NCBI RefSeq assembly: GCF_900156785.1
Contig: NZ_FTOP01000002.1
Location: 310,001 to 374,000, forward strand
DNA: 64,000 bases
Direction: 5' to 3'
Source: Belliella pelovolcani
GTDB taxonomy: Bacteria; Bacteroidota; Bacteroidia; Cytophagales; Cyclobacteriaceae
Shown here: piece by piece, positions 20,362 to 30,021 of the stretch
How the letters are laid out: every line of letters starts with the position of its first letter
Position numbering within the stretch: position 1 is the stretch's first letter
Program-made: the position numbers and the translations under genes
Notes under the pieces: generated by a model
The model's database searches: none
What the model saw: only the letters and a program-made list of their open reading frames with translations
Told to the model about the DNA's origin: nothing

Positions 20362-20595
20362 ATGAGTAGTCTACTAGTCGATTTGGTTCTCCTTGGTCTC
20401 ACTTATGTAGTGTTGATCTACTTCGTAGCTACCCTGACCAAAGCCCGACTCGACGGTGGAAGAAATAACAGTGGAGATGATGGTGATGGCGGGATAGAAG
20501 ATTATACACCACCCAAAATAGACCTGCCTCCAGGTGTAGTTTGGCCTTCTGATGTCGATAAAAGAAAAAAAGACAAAACGCCAGTCAATTTTTAA
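20362..20595 (+). CDS. Small single-pass membrane protein
   Basis: 77 residues: one hydrophobic segment at about 5-26 (VDLVLLGLTYVVLIYFVATL), then a Gly/Asp-rich linker (DGGRNNSGDDGDGGIED) and a Pro-rich tail (YTPPKIDLPPGVVWPSD). No known domain. Its coding nature is supported by the clean composition shift between membrane and tail parts and by the tail-to-tail arrangement with the Fur-type gene, with which it overlaps by four bases. The role is unknown. Confidence 0.6.
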   Translation: MSSLLVDLVLLGLTYVVLIYFVATLTKARLDGGRNNSGDDGDGGIEDYTPPKIDLPPGVVWPSDVDKRKKDKTPVNF

Positions 20596-21014
20596 TTACA
20601 CTTATCGCAGATACCCTGTACCAATAAACTCACTTCTTTATTCACAAAGCCATCTGGTAAATCGATTTTTGGAAGCACGGCTTCTTCTAAGCACATGGTT
20701 TTACCACATTTTTCACATTTGAAATGTACGTGTTCATGGTCATGATGATGGTGCTCTCCATCGTGATCATGTGAACAGAGCGCATATTTGGTAGCTCCGC
20801 TATCATCAAGTACTTTATGAATCAAGTCATTTTCCAAAAAGGTCTTTAAAGTCCTGTAAAGTGTCACTCGATCAAAATCGTTTTTGAGCACATCCTCTAG
20901 GTCAGCATGTGAAAGCGCAGAATCTTTTGATAAAAATGTCCTGAGCACCTCTTGTCTGCAATTGGTGATTCTGAGTTTGTGATCTTGAAGTATTTTTAAA
21001 GGAGTCAATGCCAT
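20592..21014 (-). CDS. Fur-family metal-dependent repressor
   Basis: 140 residues. N-terminal winged helix (ILQDHKLRITNCRQEVLRTFL, HADLEDVLKNDFDRVTLYRTLKTFLENDLI, with the family's TLYRTL recognition helix), then a dimerisation/metal domain with a His-rich stretch (HDHDGEHHHHDHEHVHF) and two CxxC pairs (CEKCGKTMC, CDKC) that hold structural zinc. The His-rich loop hints at zinc (Zur-like) rather than iron, but that is inference. It could be the repressor acting at the palindrome at 30601. Confidence 0.92.
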   Translation of the reverse strand: MALTPLKILQDHKLRITNCRQEVLRTFLSKDSALSHADLEDVLKNDFDRVTLYRTLKTFLENDLIHKVLDDSGATKYALCSHDHDGEHHHHDHEHVHFKCEKCGKTMCLEEAVLPKIDLPDGFVNKEVSLLVQGICDKCN

Positions 21015-23800: not shown

Positions 23801-24913
23801 ATGCAAGTACAAGATATTATAATTATTGGTGGAGGATTGGCAGGGTTGATTGCTGCTAACTTGCTTGGAAAAGCAGGTAAACGAGTTTTGGTGATTGAAA
23901 AAAAGGCTTATCCATTCCATCGTGTTTGTGGAGAATATATCAGTAATGAAGTGCGGGATTTTTTAATGAAGGAGGAACTATTTCCAAGCGACCTGGATAT
24001 TGGGGATATCCATACTTTTCAACTTACCTCAACCAAGGGCAAAAGTGTGAGTATGCCATTAGACCTAGGCGGATTTGGGGTCAGTAGGTATGCCTTGGAT
24101 AATTTTCTCTATCATAAGGCTAAGAAAAATGGAGCAGAGTTTTTGCTACAGCATCAAGTAGAAGAGGTGTTTTTCGATGATCAGGGAAAGAAATTTATCC
24201 TTACTCTGGGTGATAGTAGTCAGCTTTGTTGTAATCATTTGATAGGGGCTTATGGAAAACGTTCGAAAGTTGATAAGTTTTTGGGAAGAGGTTTTATGTC
24301 TCAGCGGAGTCCTTATATTGGAGTGAAGTACCATATCCAAATTGATTATGATCCAAACACAGTGGCACTTCATAACTTTGAAGGAGGCTACTGTGGAATC
24401 AATCGGGTAGAAGATGGCATCTTTAATTTGTGCTATCTAGGTTCTAGAGAACAACTCAGAGCTGCTGGCACTATTGAGCAAATGGAAGTAGATTTTCTGT
24501 GGAAAAACCCTTTCTTAAAAAGCATTTGGAAAAACAGTGAGTTTCTGTTTGAAAGACCTGAAGTGATCAATGAAATCAATTTTTCCCCTAAGCAACCTGT
24601 AGAAAACCATATCCTTATGGCGGGGGATGCAGCAGGTCTGATCACCCCTCTCTGTGGCAATGGGATGGCAATCGCTATCCATACAGGTAAGCTGGCAGCT
24701 GAGGCACTTATTAAGTTTAAAGAAAGAAATGAAATTGAGCGCTTTTATACCTCAAAGTGGAATGCCCATTTCAAGCAAAGGCTTTGGGTGGGTCGAAATG
24801 TTCAGAGGCTTTTTGGGGCAAAAGGAGTCTCAGAATTTTCCGTAAGCTTGATCAAGAGATCACCGTTTATAGCCAATCAAATCATGAAGCGAACTCATGG
24901 AGAGGCTGTCTGA
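23801..24913 (+). CDS. FAD-dependent oxidoreductase of the polyketide locus
   Basis: 370 residues. N-terminal FAD-binding IIIIGGGLAGLIAANLLGKAG, an ERK-like IEKK acceptor, RVCGEYIS, and the second FAD motif ILMAGDAAGLITPLCGNGMA at about 270-290. These place it in the group of aromatic-ring hydroxylases and geranylgeranyl reductases. In this setting it could hydroxylate the polyketide ring, as a flavoprotein does after the type III synthase and methyltransferase in the Streptomyces griseus srs operon, or reduce a prenyl chain. Its last base abuts the stop of the convergent UbiA gene with no gap. Reaction choice is inference. Confidence 0.85.
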   Translation: MQVQDIIIIGGGLAGLIAANLLGKAGKRVLVIEKKAYPFHRVCGEYISNEVRDFLMKEELFPSDLDIGDIHTFQLTSTKGKSVSMPLDLGGFGVSRYALDNFLYHKAKKNGAEFLLQHQVEEVFFDDQGKKFILTLGDSSQLCCNHLIGAYGKRSKVDKFLGRGFMSQRSPYIGVKYHIQIDYDPNTVALHNFEGGYCGINRVEDGIFNLCYLGSREQLRAAGTIEQMEVDFLWKNPFLKSIWKNSEFLFERPEVINEINFSPKQPVENHILMAGDAAGLITPLCGNGMAIAIHTGKLAAEALIKFKERNEIERFYTSKWNAHFKQRLWVGRNVQRLFGAKGVSEFSVSLIKRSPFIANQIMKRTHGEAV

Positions 24914-25804
24914 TCAGATTACTTGGAGGATTTGAGTGTTTTCTAAGAAATACCAAAAAAAGAAAACATTCAAAGCTATAGCGGATATTCTGTTCATCCA
25001 CATGGCCCAAGCGTAATTGGTATATTTTTCGGGATTTTTTTTCACGAATGAAAACCATAAGAGGAAGTATAATAGCACTGGAGTCATGGCTATCAAAAAG
25101 CCATAAAACGCCCAACTTTGATTTCTATCTAGAAAAAACCATGCAAAGGCTACACCTGCGACCAAAAACCAAATTGAAGCAAAAAGAAATGTGCCTTTGA
25201 TACCAAGTTTCAAGCTGAGGGTAATGTCTCCTCTTTTGGCATCTTCCTCGTGCTGATATACTTGCGTCAGTGGATAAGAACCCCATAGCATTAGGGAAGT
25301 CAGAAGTCCAGGAATCAACACATGTGATCTTGTCAATACCTCAAACCCAAAATCACTCAAACCCGCATAGGCCATGCAGAAAGTAAAGCACCCTTGAAAA
25401 AAACCAGCGACAAGCCAACTGATATAAGGCATTTTTTTGAGTCGGATGCTCGGGTGGCTGTAGGCCATAGATACTAGACCATACACGATGACCATACCAG
25501 CAAACGAGGGATTGATCAAAGCAGCTAAAACTATTGCAATAAGGAAAAAAGCCAAAGAGAGGTAGTATAGCCCTTTGTTCACCTTTGGAGGATTTTTTAG
25601 ACCCCCGATGCTACCCTCGTCTTTATCAAAATAGGAGTTGTAGCCATTGCTGGAGGGATATAGAAATAGATGGAGGCTGAGAAAAACCAAAAGCATCCTT
25701 TCTGGATTGTGATTGGGAGTAAAAGCCAAGGCAAAAATAAAAACAGGAAGGAGGTAAAAAGAAAAAGGGATCCTTAAATGCTTCCAACTAGATAGACTGA
25801 ACAT
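24914..25804 (-). CDS. UbiA-family prenyltransferase
   Basis: 296 residues, about eight to nine transmembrane helices. Both magnesium-diphosphate motifs are there: NGYNSYFDKDEGS (NxxxDxxxD-like, about residue 53-66) and YQHEEDAKRGDITLS (DxxxD, about 190-205), so it is expected to transfer a polyprenyl group to an aromatic or similar acceptor in the membrane. It differs from MenA and UbiA of respiratory quinone synthesis in context: it lies between a flavoprotein and a type III polyketide synthase, diverging from the latter with 90 bases between starts. A heme O or digeranylgeranyl-type role cannot be excluded. Confidence 0.88.
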   Translation of the reverse strand: MFSLSSWKHLRIPFSFYLLPVFIFALAFTPNHNPERMLLVFLSLHLFLYPSSNGYNSYFDKDEGSIGGLKNPPKVNKGLYYLSLAFFLIAIVLAALINPSFAGMVIVYGLVSMAYSHPSIRLKKMPYISWLVAGFFQGCFTFCMAYAGLSDFGFEVLTRSHVLIPGLLTSLMLWGSYPLTQVYQHEEDAKRGDITLSLKLGIKGTFLFASIWFLVAGVAFAWFFLDRNQSWAFYGFLIAMTPVLLYFLLWFSFVKKNPEKYTNYAWAMWMNRISAIALNVFFFWYFLENTQILQVI

Positions 25805-25894
25805 AAGATTATGAATTGTTTTTCTTAACTTTTGTGGAAAGTACTTGTTTCATTTTAGTCATCCAAATTTAATTTTAACAGCGATACCGTTTTG

Positions 25895-26974
25895 ATGGAA
25901 AACCATATTTTGAGTATAGGCACAGCCAACCCAGGAGCCCCAATTCCCCAGATGCAAATCAGTAAGTTTATGAAACTTGCGCATCAACTGGATGAAATAG
26001 AAGGCAGGAAGCTAAATTTTGTATACAAGGCTTCGGGAATTGACTTCAGGCATAGTGCATTGGAGGATTTCAAGTTTGATAACCCGGAGGATTTTCGATT
26101 TTTTCCTCCCAATGAAGCCCTAGAGCCATTTCCTTCTACAGACCAGCGTATGCAAGTATTCGAAAAGGAAGCGCTGGCATTGAGTATTGCCGCAGTAGGC
26201 AATTGTCTTGGTAAAGTAAATGTATTACCAAATGAAATTACCCATCTTATCTTGGTATCCTGTACTGGGATGTATGCCCCAGGCTTGGAGGTCGACTTGA
26301 TCCACGAGCTGGGGATTCCTAGTAATGTGGAGCGATATTGCATTCATTTTATGGGATGTTATGCTGCATTCAATGCTATCAAGCTAGCAGATAGAATTTG
26401 CGATGCTGATCCCCCTGCCAAAGTATTGATCTTGTCTATAGAGCTATGCACCATTCATTTTCAGAAGGAATACAATGAAGACAACCTGATTGCCAATGCG
26501 ATTTTTGGAGATGGAGCGGCAGCTGCATTGGTTACAAAAGCCAGCACGGGGTTGGCTATTAAAAATTACGGCAGTCAGATTATCAAAGAAGGGGTACAGG
26601 ATATGGCCTGGAGAATTGGTAACTTTGGTTTCGAAATGAAGCTGAGCAAATATGTCCCAGAGCTGTTACACAAGGGACTAGCAGAACTGTCTGATTATTT
26701 GGAGCAATTGCATCAACTTTCTAAAGTGGAACATTTTGCAGTGCATCCAGGCGGGAAGCAGATTTTACAAAAAGTGGAAGAAGCTTTTGGGATATCAACA
26801 CTTCAAAACAATCACTCACATGATGTATTGAAGCAATATGGCAACATGTCTTCGGTGACAATCCTTTTTGTACTTGAGCGGTGGCTCAAAGATGAAAATA
26901 GGAAGGGTAATATTTTAGCAATGGGCTTTGGGCCTGGCTTGACATTAGAAACACTTTTATTGGATAAGTCATGA
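25895..26974 (+). CDS. Type III polyketide synthase (chalcone/stilbene synthase family)
   Basis: 359 residues from the ATG at 25895 (a TTG just in front is not needed). The catalytic triad is intact: cysteine 155 in HFMGCYAAFNA, histidine 284 in HFAVHPGGKQ and asparagine 317 in QYGNMSS; GFGPGLTLE near the C-terminus is the family's GFGPG loop. It should extend an acyl starter with malonyl-CoA and cyclise the chain to a resorcinol, pyrone or phloroglucinol. The starter cannot be read from the sequence. The downstream methyltransferase overlaps by four bases (ATGA), so the two are coupled. Confidence 0.94.
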   Translation: MENHILSIGTANPGAPIPQMQISKFMKLAHQLDEIEGRKLNFVYKASGIDFRHSALEDFKFDNPEDFRFFPPNEALEPFPSTDQRMQVFEKEALALSIAAVGNCLGKVNVLPNEITHLILVSCTGMYAPGLEVDLIHELGIPSNVERYCIHFMGCYAAFNAIKLADRICDADPPAKVLILSIELCTIHFQKEYNEDNLIANAIFGDGAAAALVTKASTGLAIKNYGSQIIKEGVQDMAWRIGNFGFEMKLSKYVPELLHKGLAELSDYLEQLHQLSKVEHFAVHPGGKQILQKVEEAFGISTLQNNHSHDVLKQYGNMSSVTILFVLERWLKDENRKGNILAMGFGPGLTLETLLLDKS

Positions 26975-27678
26975 TAGATTTCAACCAACGCAGTTCAGAG
27001 AAAGAGATTATGGATGACCTCGCATGCGATGGGCCTGTGTTGGATCAGACTTTAAAAGAGCTCAAGTCTATCAATAAGCTCCTAGGTGGAAATCATGTCA
27101 CTACCGATGGGTTGGATAAAATCACAGCCAAATTTCCCCAAGCATCCTATACCATCGCAGATATTGGCTGTGGAGGAGGGGATATGATCAGGGTGATGGG
27201 AGATTGGGCAATAAAAAAGAACCTAAACCTGCATTTCATTGGAGTAGATGCCAATCCGAATACCATTGAATTTGCAAAAGAGCGATTAGCTGACCTGAAC
27301 AATGTAGAATTTTTAGTCAAAAATGTCTTTGAGGCAGGGTTTTTGGGGACAAAAGTAGATATCATCACCTGTACGCTCTTTACCCATCACTTTACGGATT
27401 CAGAACTACAAATGCTCTTGAAATCACTGCTCGATCAGGCAAAATTAGGTATAGTGATCAATGACCTACACAGGCATAGCGTAGCATATTACAGCATCAC
27501 GTTGCTGACGAGATTCTTTTCTAAGTCAGACATGGTCAAAAATGACGGGCCACTATCAGTATTGAGGGCTTTTTCTAGGGCAGATTGGAAAGAGCTTCTG
27601 AAGCATAGCCAAATCAAATCGTATGCGATAAAGTGGTTTTGGGCATTCAGATGGCAGGTAATTGTATGGAATTCTTAA
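26971..27678 (+). CDS. SAM-dependent methyltransferase of the polyketide locus
   Basis: 235 residues, class I methyltransferase with motif I IADIGCGGGDMIRVM at about 62-76, an acidic residue ending beta 2 (FIGVDANPN) and DIITCTLFTHHF as motif IV region. It most likely methylates the product of the overlapping polyketide synthase (O- or C-methylation). The N-terminal 50 residues resemble the UbiE/Coq5-like lid. It ends 35 bases before mscS, which may share the transcript. Confidence 0.85.
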   Translation: MIDFNQRSSEKEIMDDLACDGPVLDQTLKELKSINKLLGGNHVTTDGLDKITAKFPQASYTIADIGCGGGDMIRVMGDWAIKKNLNLHFIGVDANPNTIEFAKERLADLNNVEFLVKNVFEAGFLGTKVDIITCTLFTHHFTDSELQMLLKSLLDQAKLGIVINDLHRHSVAYYSITLLTRFFSKSDMVKNDGPLSVLRAFSRADWKELLKHSQIKSYAIKWFWAFRWQVIVWNS

Positions 27679-28827: not shown

Positions 28828-30021
28828 TTAAATAGGCCAGTTGTCGGTAAACTTTTGCCCTTTCAGAAATGCTGCCACTTCACTGGGATTGAGCAAGCAC
28901 TTTTGTAATTCTCCCTGAATCAATTCCTGATCTAAGTCTTGACCGATGATCACCAGTTCATTTTTCCGATCACCAAAGTTCTTATCCCATTTGGCCTCTA
29001 TCAATATTTGATTGTCTAAGTAAGAAGCATATCGCGTCCTATCCTTGAATGGCATACTGGCCCACCATACACCAACAGGTTCTGCTTTGACAGATCCGCC
29101 TGCTTGTGACCAAGAGATGGCTTGGTCTTTTCTTGAAGCAATGTAGAATAGCCCTTTGCTCCTAATCACATTGCCTGGCCAGTTGAATGAAATAAAGTCC
29201 CAAAACCTCTGGGGGTGAAAAGGACGCTTATCTCTGAATACAAAAGAAGAAATACCGTATTCTTCCGTCTCAGGAGTGTGGTCTTTTTCAAGCTCCGCCT
29301 GCCACCCCGCAGAATTGGAGGCTTCTTCAAAGTCAAACATACCGGTGTTTAATATCTCAGAAGGGCTGACTTTGGAGTTTTCTGTGATGATGATTTTAGC
29401 TGCTGGATTGAGTTTGGCTATGATTGCTTTCAGTTCGGCCAAATGACTCGGTTCTACCAAATCAGCCTTATTTATCAGAATGACATTGGCAAATTCTATT
29501 TGATCAGTGAGTAAGTTGACAATGCTTCTTTGATCCTCTGGATCATCGTTGAGATTTTTAGAATAGACAGTATCTGCACTTCCAAAATCTTTGTAAAAAT
29601 TATAAGCATCGACTACAGTAACCAAGGTGTCCAATTGACTGAATCTTGAAAGGTCTATGCCTTTTTCTTCATCCACAAAGCTAAATGTCTGAGCAACTGG
29701 AAGAGGCTCTGAGATCCCTGTGCTTTCGATTAATAAATAATCAAAACGATTTTCCTTGGCCAATCGCTCTACTTCAATCATAAGATCCTCTCGGAGGGTG
29801 CAGCAGATACAGCCATTGCTCATTTCTACTAAGCGCTCTTCGGTACGCGATAAGGTGTTTTCCTGTCTGACCAGTTGTGCATCTACATTGACCTCACTCA
29901 TGTCATTGACGATGACAGCAATCTTGAGGCCTTCTTTATTGTGGAGAATGTGGTTGAGGAGGGTTGTTTTGCCAGCTCCTAAAAATCCGCTAAGAACAGT
30001 TACAGGAAGTTTTTTTTGCAT
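28828..30021 (-). CDS. CobW/ZNG-family GTP-binding metal chaperone
   Basis: 397 residues. Walker [16 protein letters not shown], the metal-binding CxCC motif CICC in [13 protein letters not shown], switch region [16 protein letters not shown] guanine motif, and a C-terminal CobW_C domain (from about [19 protein letters not shown]). Members of this family deliver zinc to client proteins under shortage. The palindrome over the promoter of its operon fits control by a zinc repressor. It follows the secreted CxxC protein with a one-base gap. Confidence 0.92.

Follow-up and report, generated by a model that had tools for sequence, protein, structure and literature searches.

A conserved four-gene locus of Belliella pelovolcani links a type III polyketide synthase to an uncharacterised UbiA subfamily and may direct the synthesis of a prenylated phenolic lipid or quinone

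A 64,000-nucleotide stretch of the Belliella pelovolcani genome (NZ_FTOP01000002.1, positions 310,001 to 374,000; hereafter the window) holds a small locus in which the genes of a type III polyketide synthase (PKS), a methyltransferase (MT), a UbiA-superfamily membrane protein and a flavin adenine dinucleotide (FAD)-dependent flavoprotein stand side by side. Do these four genes serve a single pathway, and what would that pathway make? We approached the question through what can be observed directly: which genes the locus contains, how far their linkage and joint occurrence are conserved, and which enzyme families and catalytic residues their products represent. The four genes probably form one biosynthetic unit for a prenylated, methylated and oxygenated phenolic lipid or quinone derived from an alkylresorcinol, a reading that we propose with moderate confidence. 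An earlier, sequence-only reading of the window had described the four genes, their coordinates and their junctions, and the open reading frame (ORF) calls and the sequence agree with it. The PKS and MT genes overlap by four bases (ATGA), the UbiA start lies 90 bases from the PKS ATG in divergent orientation, and the stop codons of the flavoprotein and UbiA genes abut at 24913/24914. The PKS ATG is preceded by an in-frame TTG at 25892.

The unity of the locus is best seen in its distribution. We searched 393 Bacteroidota genomes at thresholds of at least 427 bits for the PKS clade and at least 338 bits for the UbiA subfamily; the taxon names attached to lettered families (e.g. f7, Flavobacteriaceae-like; f24, Balneolaceae-like) are tentative labels based on GC content and genome size. 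The PKS clade and the UbiA subfamily share one and the same set of 26 genomes and are absent from all the others (Fisher p ~3e-41, uncorrected for shared ancestry). The two genes are at most 550 bases apart in 20 of these genomes and separate in the other six. Five further named genomes (Flexithrix, Shiella, Bernardetiaceae and others) have the PKS without an adjacent UbiA, yet carry the UbiA elsewhere. In at least four families (f3, f4, f5 and f8) some genomes have both genes and others neither, and the pattern is therefore not one inherited event. The flavoprotein accompanies the PKS in all 26 genomes and the MT in 24. Hence, the linkage that the sequence-only reading had proposed to look for across Bacteroidota is conserved.

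Among named organisms, the nearest relative is Belliella buryatensis, whose four proteins are 79-90% identical to those of the locus, and the set FAD-UbiA-PKS-MT is kept in most of 65 named relatives. In Cyclobacterium, the flavoprotein gene has been relocated away from the locus. Gene order also differs between families: UbiA and PKS are divergent in Cyclobacteriaceae, and another family has a tight co-directional UbiA-PKS-MT-FAD operon. The divergent arrangement is found in 84 of the 98 locus entries with both genes, some genomes being counted in two loci.

Table 1. Features of the four-gene locus, in window coordinates
Feature	Position	Strand	Basis
FAD-dependent oxygenase-like flavoprotein, 370 aa	23801..24913	+	Pfam FAD-binding domain, above cut-off
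UbiA-superfamily membrane prenyltransferase, 296 aa	24914..25804	-	Pfam PF01040, 70.6 bits, above cut-off
UbiA/PKS divergent intergenic region, 90 bases, candidate shared promoter region	25805..25894	no strand	ORF layout
Type III polyketide synthase, 359 aa from ATG 25895	25895..26974	+	Pfam Chal_sti_synt N and C domains, above cut-off
Class I S-adenosylmethionine (SAM)-dependent methyltransferase, 235 aa, PRK06202-like	26971..27678	+	Pfam, above cut-off

The enzymes of the locus can be arranged in a pathway; its substrates, the sequence and regiochemistry of its steps, the length of the prenyl chain and the biological role are given here as we infer them. The type III PKS would start from a long-chain fatty acyl unit, probably a branched one, elongate it with malonyl units and cyclise the chain to an alkylresorcinol. 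The MT would place a methyl group on the ring or on a hydroxyl, and hydroxylation of the ring by the flavoprotein would open the way to a hydroquinone or quinone. The membrane-bound UbiA would attach an isoprenoid from a prenyl diphosphate, giving a membrane-embedded, prenylated and methylated phenolic lipid or quinone. Several observations speak against this scheme. The MT is missing from two of the 26 genomes, usually acidic residues of the UbiA motifs are replaced (S57 and Q184), and related PKSs also make pyrones or acylphloroglucinols. In addition, the equation of PKS residue W239 with the W281 position of ArsB is putative, being drawn from residue spacing and not from an alignment to the ArsB sequence.

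The catalytic triad of the PKS, C155/H284/N317 (numbered from the ATG), is intact, as the sequence-only reading had stated, and is invariant in 16 diverse relatives. Phmmer matches of the PKS in the PDB are 7cb3, PKS18 (1ted) and 4b0n, with E values of 1e-39 to 1e-41. The enzyme belongs to the bacterial alkylpyrone/alkylresorcinol type; PKS18 is an alkylpyrone synthase and 4b0n a phloroglucinol synthase. These relatives raise the alternative that the scaffold which the PKS makes and the other enzymes decorate is an alkylpyrone or acylphloroglucinol, and MMAR_2474 yields both resorcinols and acylphloroglucinols from a single pocket. We regard this alternative as rather unlikely. W239 is kept in every PKS-MT-FAD triad checked of this PKS class, while the position is occupied by Leu in PKS18 and 4b0n and by Phe in the diverged Flavobacteriaceae-like PKS. 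A Trp at the ArsB W281 position is reported to be conserved in the resorcinol-forming ArsB, SrsA, FtpA, PKS10 and PKS11, and the spacing of the Trp, a Gln/Glu at +8 and a Leu/Ile/Val at +15 in our PKS is that of the published pocket positions around this Trp (PMC5916927). Moreover, a planctomycete relative of the triad, the mtr-fdo-t3pks operon, gave alkylresorcinols upon heterologous expression and a methylated derivative with the tailoring genes (PMC10896814), and tailoring genes of quinone type are co-conserved with the PKS. Together these points favour a resorcinol scaffold. In the PKS tree, all UbiA-bearing entries fall within one clade with a support of 98.

The flavoprotein had been likened to the hydroxylase of the srs operon, with saturation of the prenyl chain as an alternative. 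It is probably a hydroxylase of the resorcinol core. Its superfamily is geranylgeranyl (GG)-reductase/halogenase-like, unlike the UbiH/rifampin-monooxygenase-like (class A hydroxylase-like) flavoproteins in the wider triads of Deinococcus (L103) and of locus L132. That the enzyme is instead a prenyl reductase of GG type, which saturates the UbiA-attached chain and leaves the ring without the hydroxyl, is unlikely. Its best NCBIfam match is indeed the GG-reductase superfamily model TIGR02032, at 130.3 bits and under the cut-off of 158.8, and the Actinoplanes product, as described in papers that cite the original report, bears a dihydrogeranyl group. The structure model has a predicted local distance difference test (pLDDT) score of 88, and in both fold and profile comparisons halogenases and hydroxylases rank first (with PqsL and UbiI in the fold comparison), the GG-reductase-like 3oz2 being close behind; the predicted fold by itself does not decide the reaction. 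The region of the usual GG-reductase/halogenase aromatic motif reads GYCG in 14 of 14 sequences. This speaks against the reductase, and a halogenase is likewise not favoured, though halogenases are among the nearest folds.

The family of the flavoprotein also stands beside an MT and a different type III PKS, without this UbiA, in 35 genomes at 400 bits or more, and in the tree the flavoproteins of UbiA genomes and those of Flavobacteriaceae-like clusters are sister groups. Flavoprotein and MT are co-present in 83 genomes, and one occurs alone in only four. As the pair is also found without this UbiA, its probable task is the tailoring of the phenolic core and not the saturation of a prenyl chain, and the prenyl step would be an addition; the alternative of chain saturation is weakened to that extent. 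The MT itself scores 151 bits against NF004851 (cut-off 243), which the triad MTs of Deinococcus (L103) and L132 do pass.

The UbiA protein was said to have both diphosphate motifs. Both motif regions are present, but their sequences are altered: motif 1 reads N56-S57-x-x-D60-x-D62 (NSxxDxD) in comparison with the canonical NDxxDxxxD, and motif 2 reads Q184-H185-x-x-D188 (QHxxD) in comparison with DxxxD. Both altered forms are invariant across the PKS-linked family. In a profile alignment, Q184 lies opposite the first Asp of the motif in archaeal digeranylgeranylglyceryl phosphate (DGGGP) synthase, but opposite a Ser in chlorophyll synthase, which likewise is without the first Asp of motif 2; the change therefore does not rule out prenyl transfer. 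The predicted structure (pLDDT 93) has an all-helical membrane fold. The solved structures closest to it are those of archaeal DGGGP synthase (DGGGPS, 7bpu) and of Archaeoglobus AfUbiA bound to geranyl diphosphate (GPP) or dimethylallyl diphosphate (DMAPP) (4tq4/4tq3), so the best structural matches are true prenyltransferases. Membership of the UbiA superfamily is thus assigned from profile and fold, and not from the canonical motif set.

Which member of the superfamily it may be was examined with family models and a tree. The UbiA reaches no NCBIfam equivalog cut-off (PRK12882, 33.3 bits with a cut-off of 296; menA, 20.3 with a cut-off of 102) and has no match to the heme O synthase model of NCBIfam. 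In the tree, the PKS-linked family stands apart from the MenA, heme O synthase and DGGGPS-like references, its deep branches being long and weakly placed. Cut-offs and tree together rule out MenA, CtaB or DGGGPS as its identity, and the grouping with MenA or heme O synthase that the sequence-only reading had set in advance as telling against it is not what we found. Separate genes of the same genome pass the cut-offs for heme O synthase (CtaB), MenA and the DGGGPS-like PRK12872, and the locus UbiA is therefore free for another role. It appears to represent an uncharacterised subfamily, so far seen only in Bacteroidota, and the PKS product would be its prenyl acceptor. The same genome also has another distant UbiA-like protein (C39:32752-33300), which is of the LA_0991 type and scores 119.5 bits with a cut-off of 300.

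The UbiA might instead act elsewhere, on another lipid or in terpene cyclisation, and be tied to the PKS only through regulation or inheritance. Its atypical motifs would fit such a role, as would its separation from the PKS in six of the 26 genomes. In Hymenobacter-like genomes (L218-L220, GC content 55-64%) it lies apart from the PKS and adjoins another conserved methyltransferase-like gene, which is possibly an additional tailoring enzyme. Against this stand the joint occurrence in all 26 genomes and in the five further ones, the joint variation within families and the tight co-directional operons, and we consider an unrelated UbiA quite improbable. Finally, an accidental neighbourhood is hardly credible and was rejected, for although the metalloprotease and MscS genes on its flanks likewise keep their synteny across Cyclobacteriaceae, the flanks change outside close relatives while PKS, UbiA, MT and flavoprotein genes remain together in new orders, and PKS and UbiA occur jointly more than chance would give, by the Fisher p above that is uncorrected for shared ancestry.

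The preferred reading, a polyketide phenol that is methylated, oxygenated and prenylated, has relatives among known systems. The srsABC genes of Streptomyces griseus, pkqABC of Mycobacterium, the cyanobacterial hidABC and the planctomycete operon are likewise PKS-methyltransferase-oxidoreductase cassettes leading to methylated alkylresorcinols or quinones, but are without a linked UbiA. Their arrangement is seen here too, in the overlap of PKS and MT, the FAD gene in the same locus and the triad in relatives. The proposal of an srs-like cassette with a prenylation step is supported, and its likely product is a phenolic lipid or quinone that is both methylated and prenylated; the combination as such has functional precedent in actinobacteria. 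The agq genes of Actinoplanes missouriensis make alkyl-O-dihydrogeranyl-methoxyhydroquinones (Awakawa 2011, as cited in PMC10896814, PMC7587189 and PMC4044012). According to these citing papers, a type III PKS alkylresorcinol is there prenylated and hydroxylated, which resembles our locus at the level of its proposed function. The agq cluster is actinobacterial, and the Belliella locus has a Bacteroidota-only UbiA subfamily and a GG-reductase/halogenase-like flavoprotein. In the los region of Micromonospora endolithica, a UbiA prenyltransferase, three genes away, and a methyltransferase lie near the type III PKS (T3PKS) gene losA, but an acyl-CoA dehydrogenase gene takes the place of the FAD enzyme; heterologous expression of the cloned region yielded loseolamycins, which are reported to be alkylresorcinols. 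A single Raphidiopsis cluster likewise includes a prenyltransferase (PMC8086630). Three things are new: in Bacteroidota, PKS and UbiA form a widespread and seemingly obligate pair; their UbiA subfamily has not been described before; and the flavoprotein comes from another family. The sequence-only reading knew of no characterised product of such a combination in the phylum, and we found none in the open literature searched.

If the reading is right, a pathway to an isoprenoid phenolic lipid or quinone that has so far gone unseen is conserved in Cyclobacteriaceae and, by inference, in Chitinophagaceae-, Saprospiraceae- and Hymenobacter-like families. It would explain a common antiSMASH hit, the 'T3PKS' without a product, and define a new UbiA subfamily with its genetic partner. 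Polyketide quinones from PKS-MT-oxidoreductase operons serve mycobacteria and Streptomyces as alternative or respiratory electron carriers (PMC9927152), and a role beside menaquinone thereby becomes testable. It is a speculative possibility that the product is a second, menaquinone-independent membrane electron carrier in many Bacteroidota and that the UbiA, with its altered metal-binding motifs, represents a class of aromatic prenyltransferase not yet described.

PKS-MT-FAD sets without the UbiA recur outside the phylum, in Psychrobacter, Deinococcus, Sphingobium, Paludisphaera and Methylobacterium. The plasmid NZ_CP012711.1 of Psychrobacter urativorans (L102) carries a PKS-FAD-MT set, and the PKS of this set groups within the Bacteroidota PKS clade, a placement that suggests horizontal transfer. 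A UbiA of this subfamily is absent from that plasmid record, and a tblastn search of plasmids with the UbiA gave no match. Flavobacteriaceae-like genomes (f7) have FAD-MT-type III PKS clusters (L203-L206) with a related flavoprotein and methyltransferase, but their PKS belongs to another clade, no UbiA is linked, and extra genes resembling ketoacyl synthase (KAS), hotdog dehydratase, short-chain dehydrogenase/reductase (SDR), acyl carrier protein (ACP) and phosphopantetheinyl transferase are present. These clusters may represent a variant of the pathway that is fed by ACP.

A second UbiA subfamily, scoring 120-163 bits to the locus UbiA and having the motif NSxWDKD, occurs in 37 Balneolaceae-like (f24) genomes; one match is partial and contains a stop. 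All 37 genomes have a type III PKS. In the loci read (L207-L216, mostly f24), the second UbiA is never beside the PKS and belongs to a small recurrent gene set. It was rejected as the same partner, being a separate subfamily that 10 of the 47 PKS-bearing genomes of this group also lack.

The locus itself is bordered in the window by a Fur-type regulator gene (20592-21014) on one side and a CobW/G3E-type GTPase gene (28828-30021) on the other, which may be part of a regulon for a metal (zinc) that has nothing to do with the four-gene cluster.

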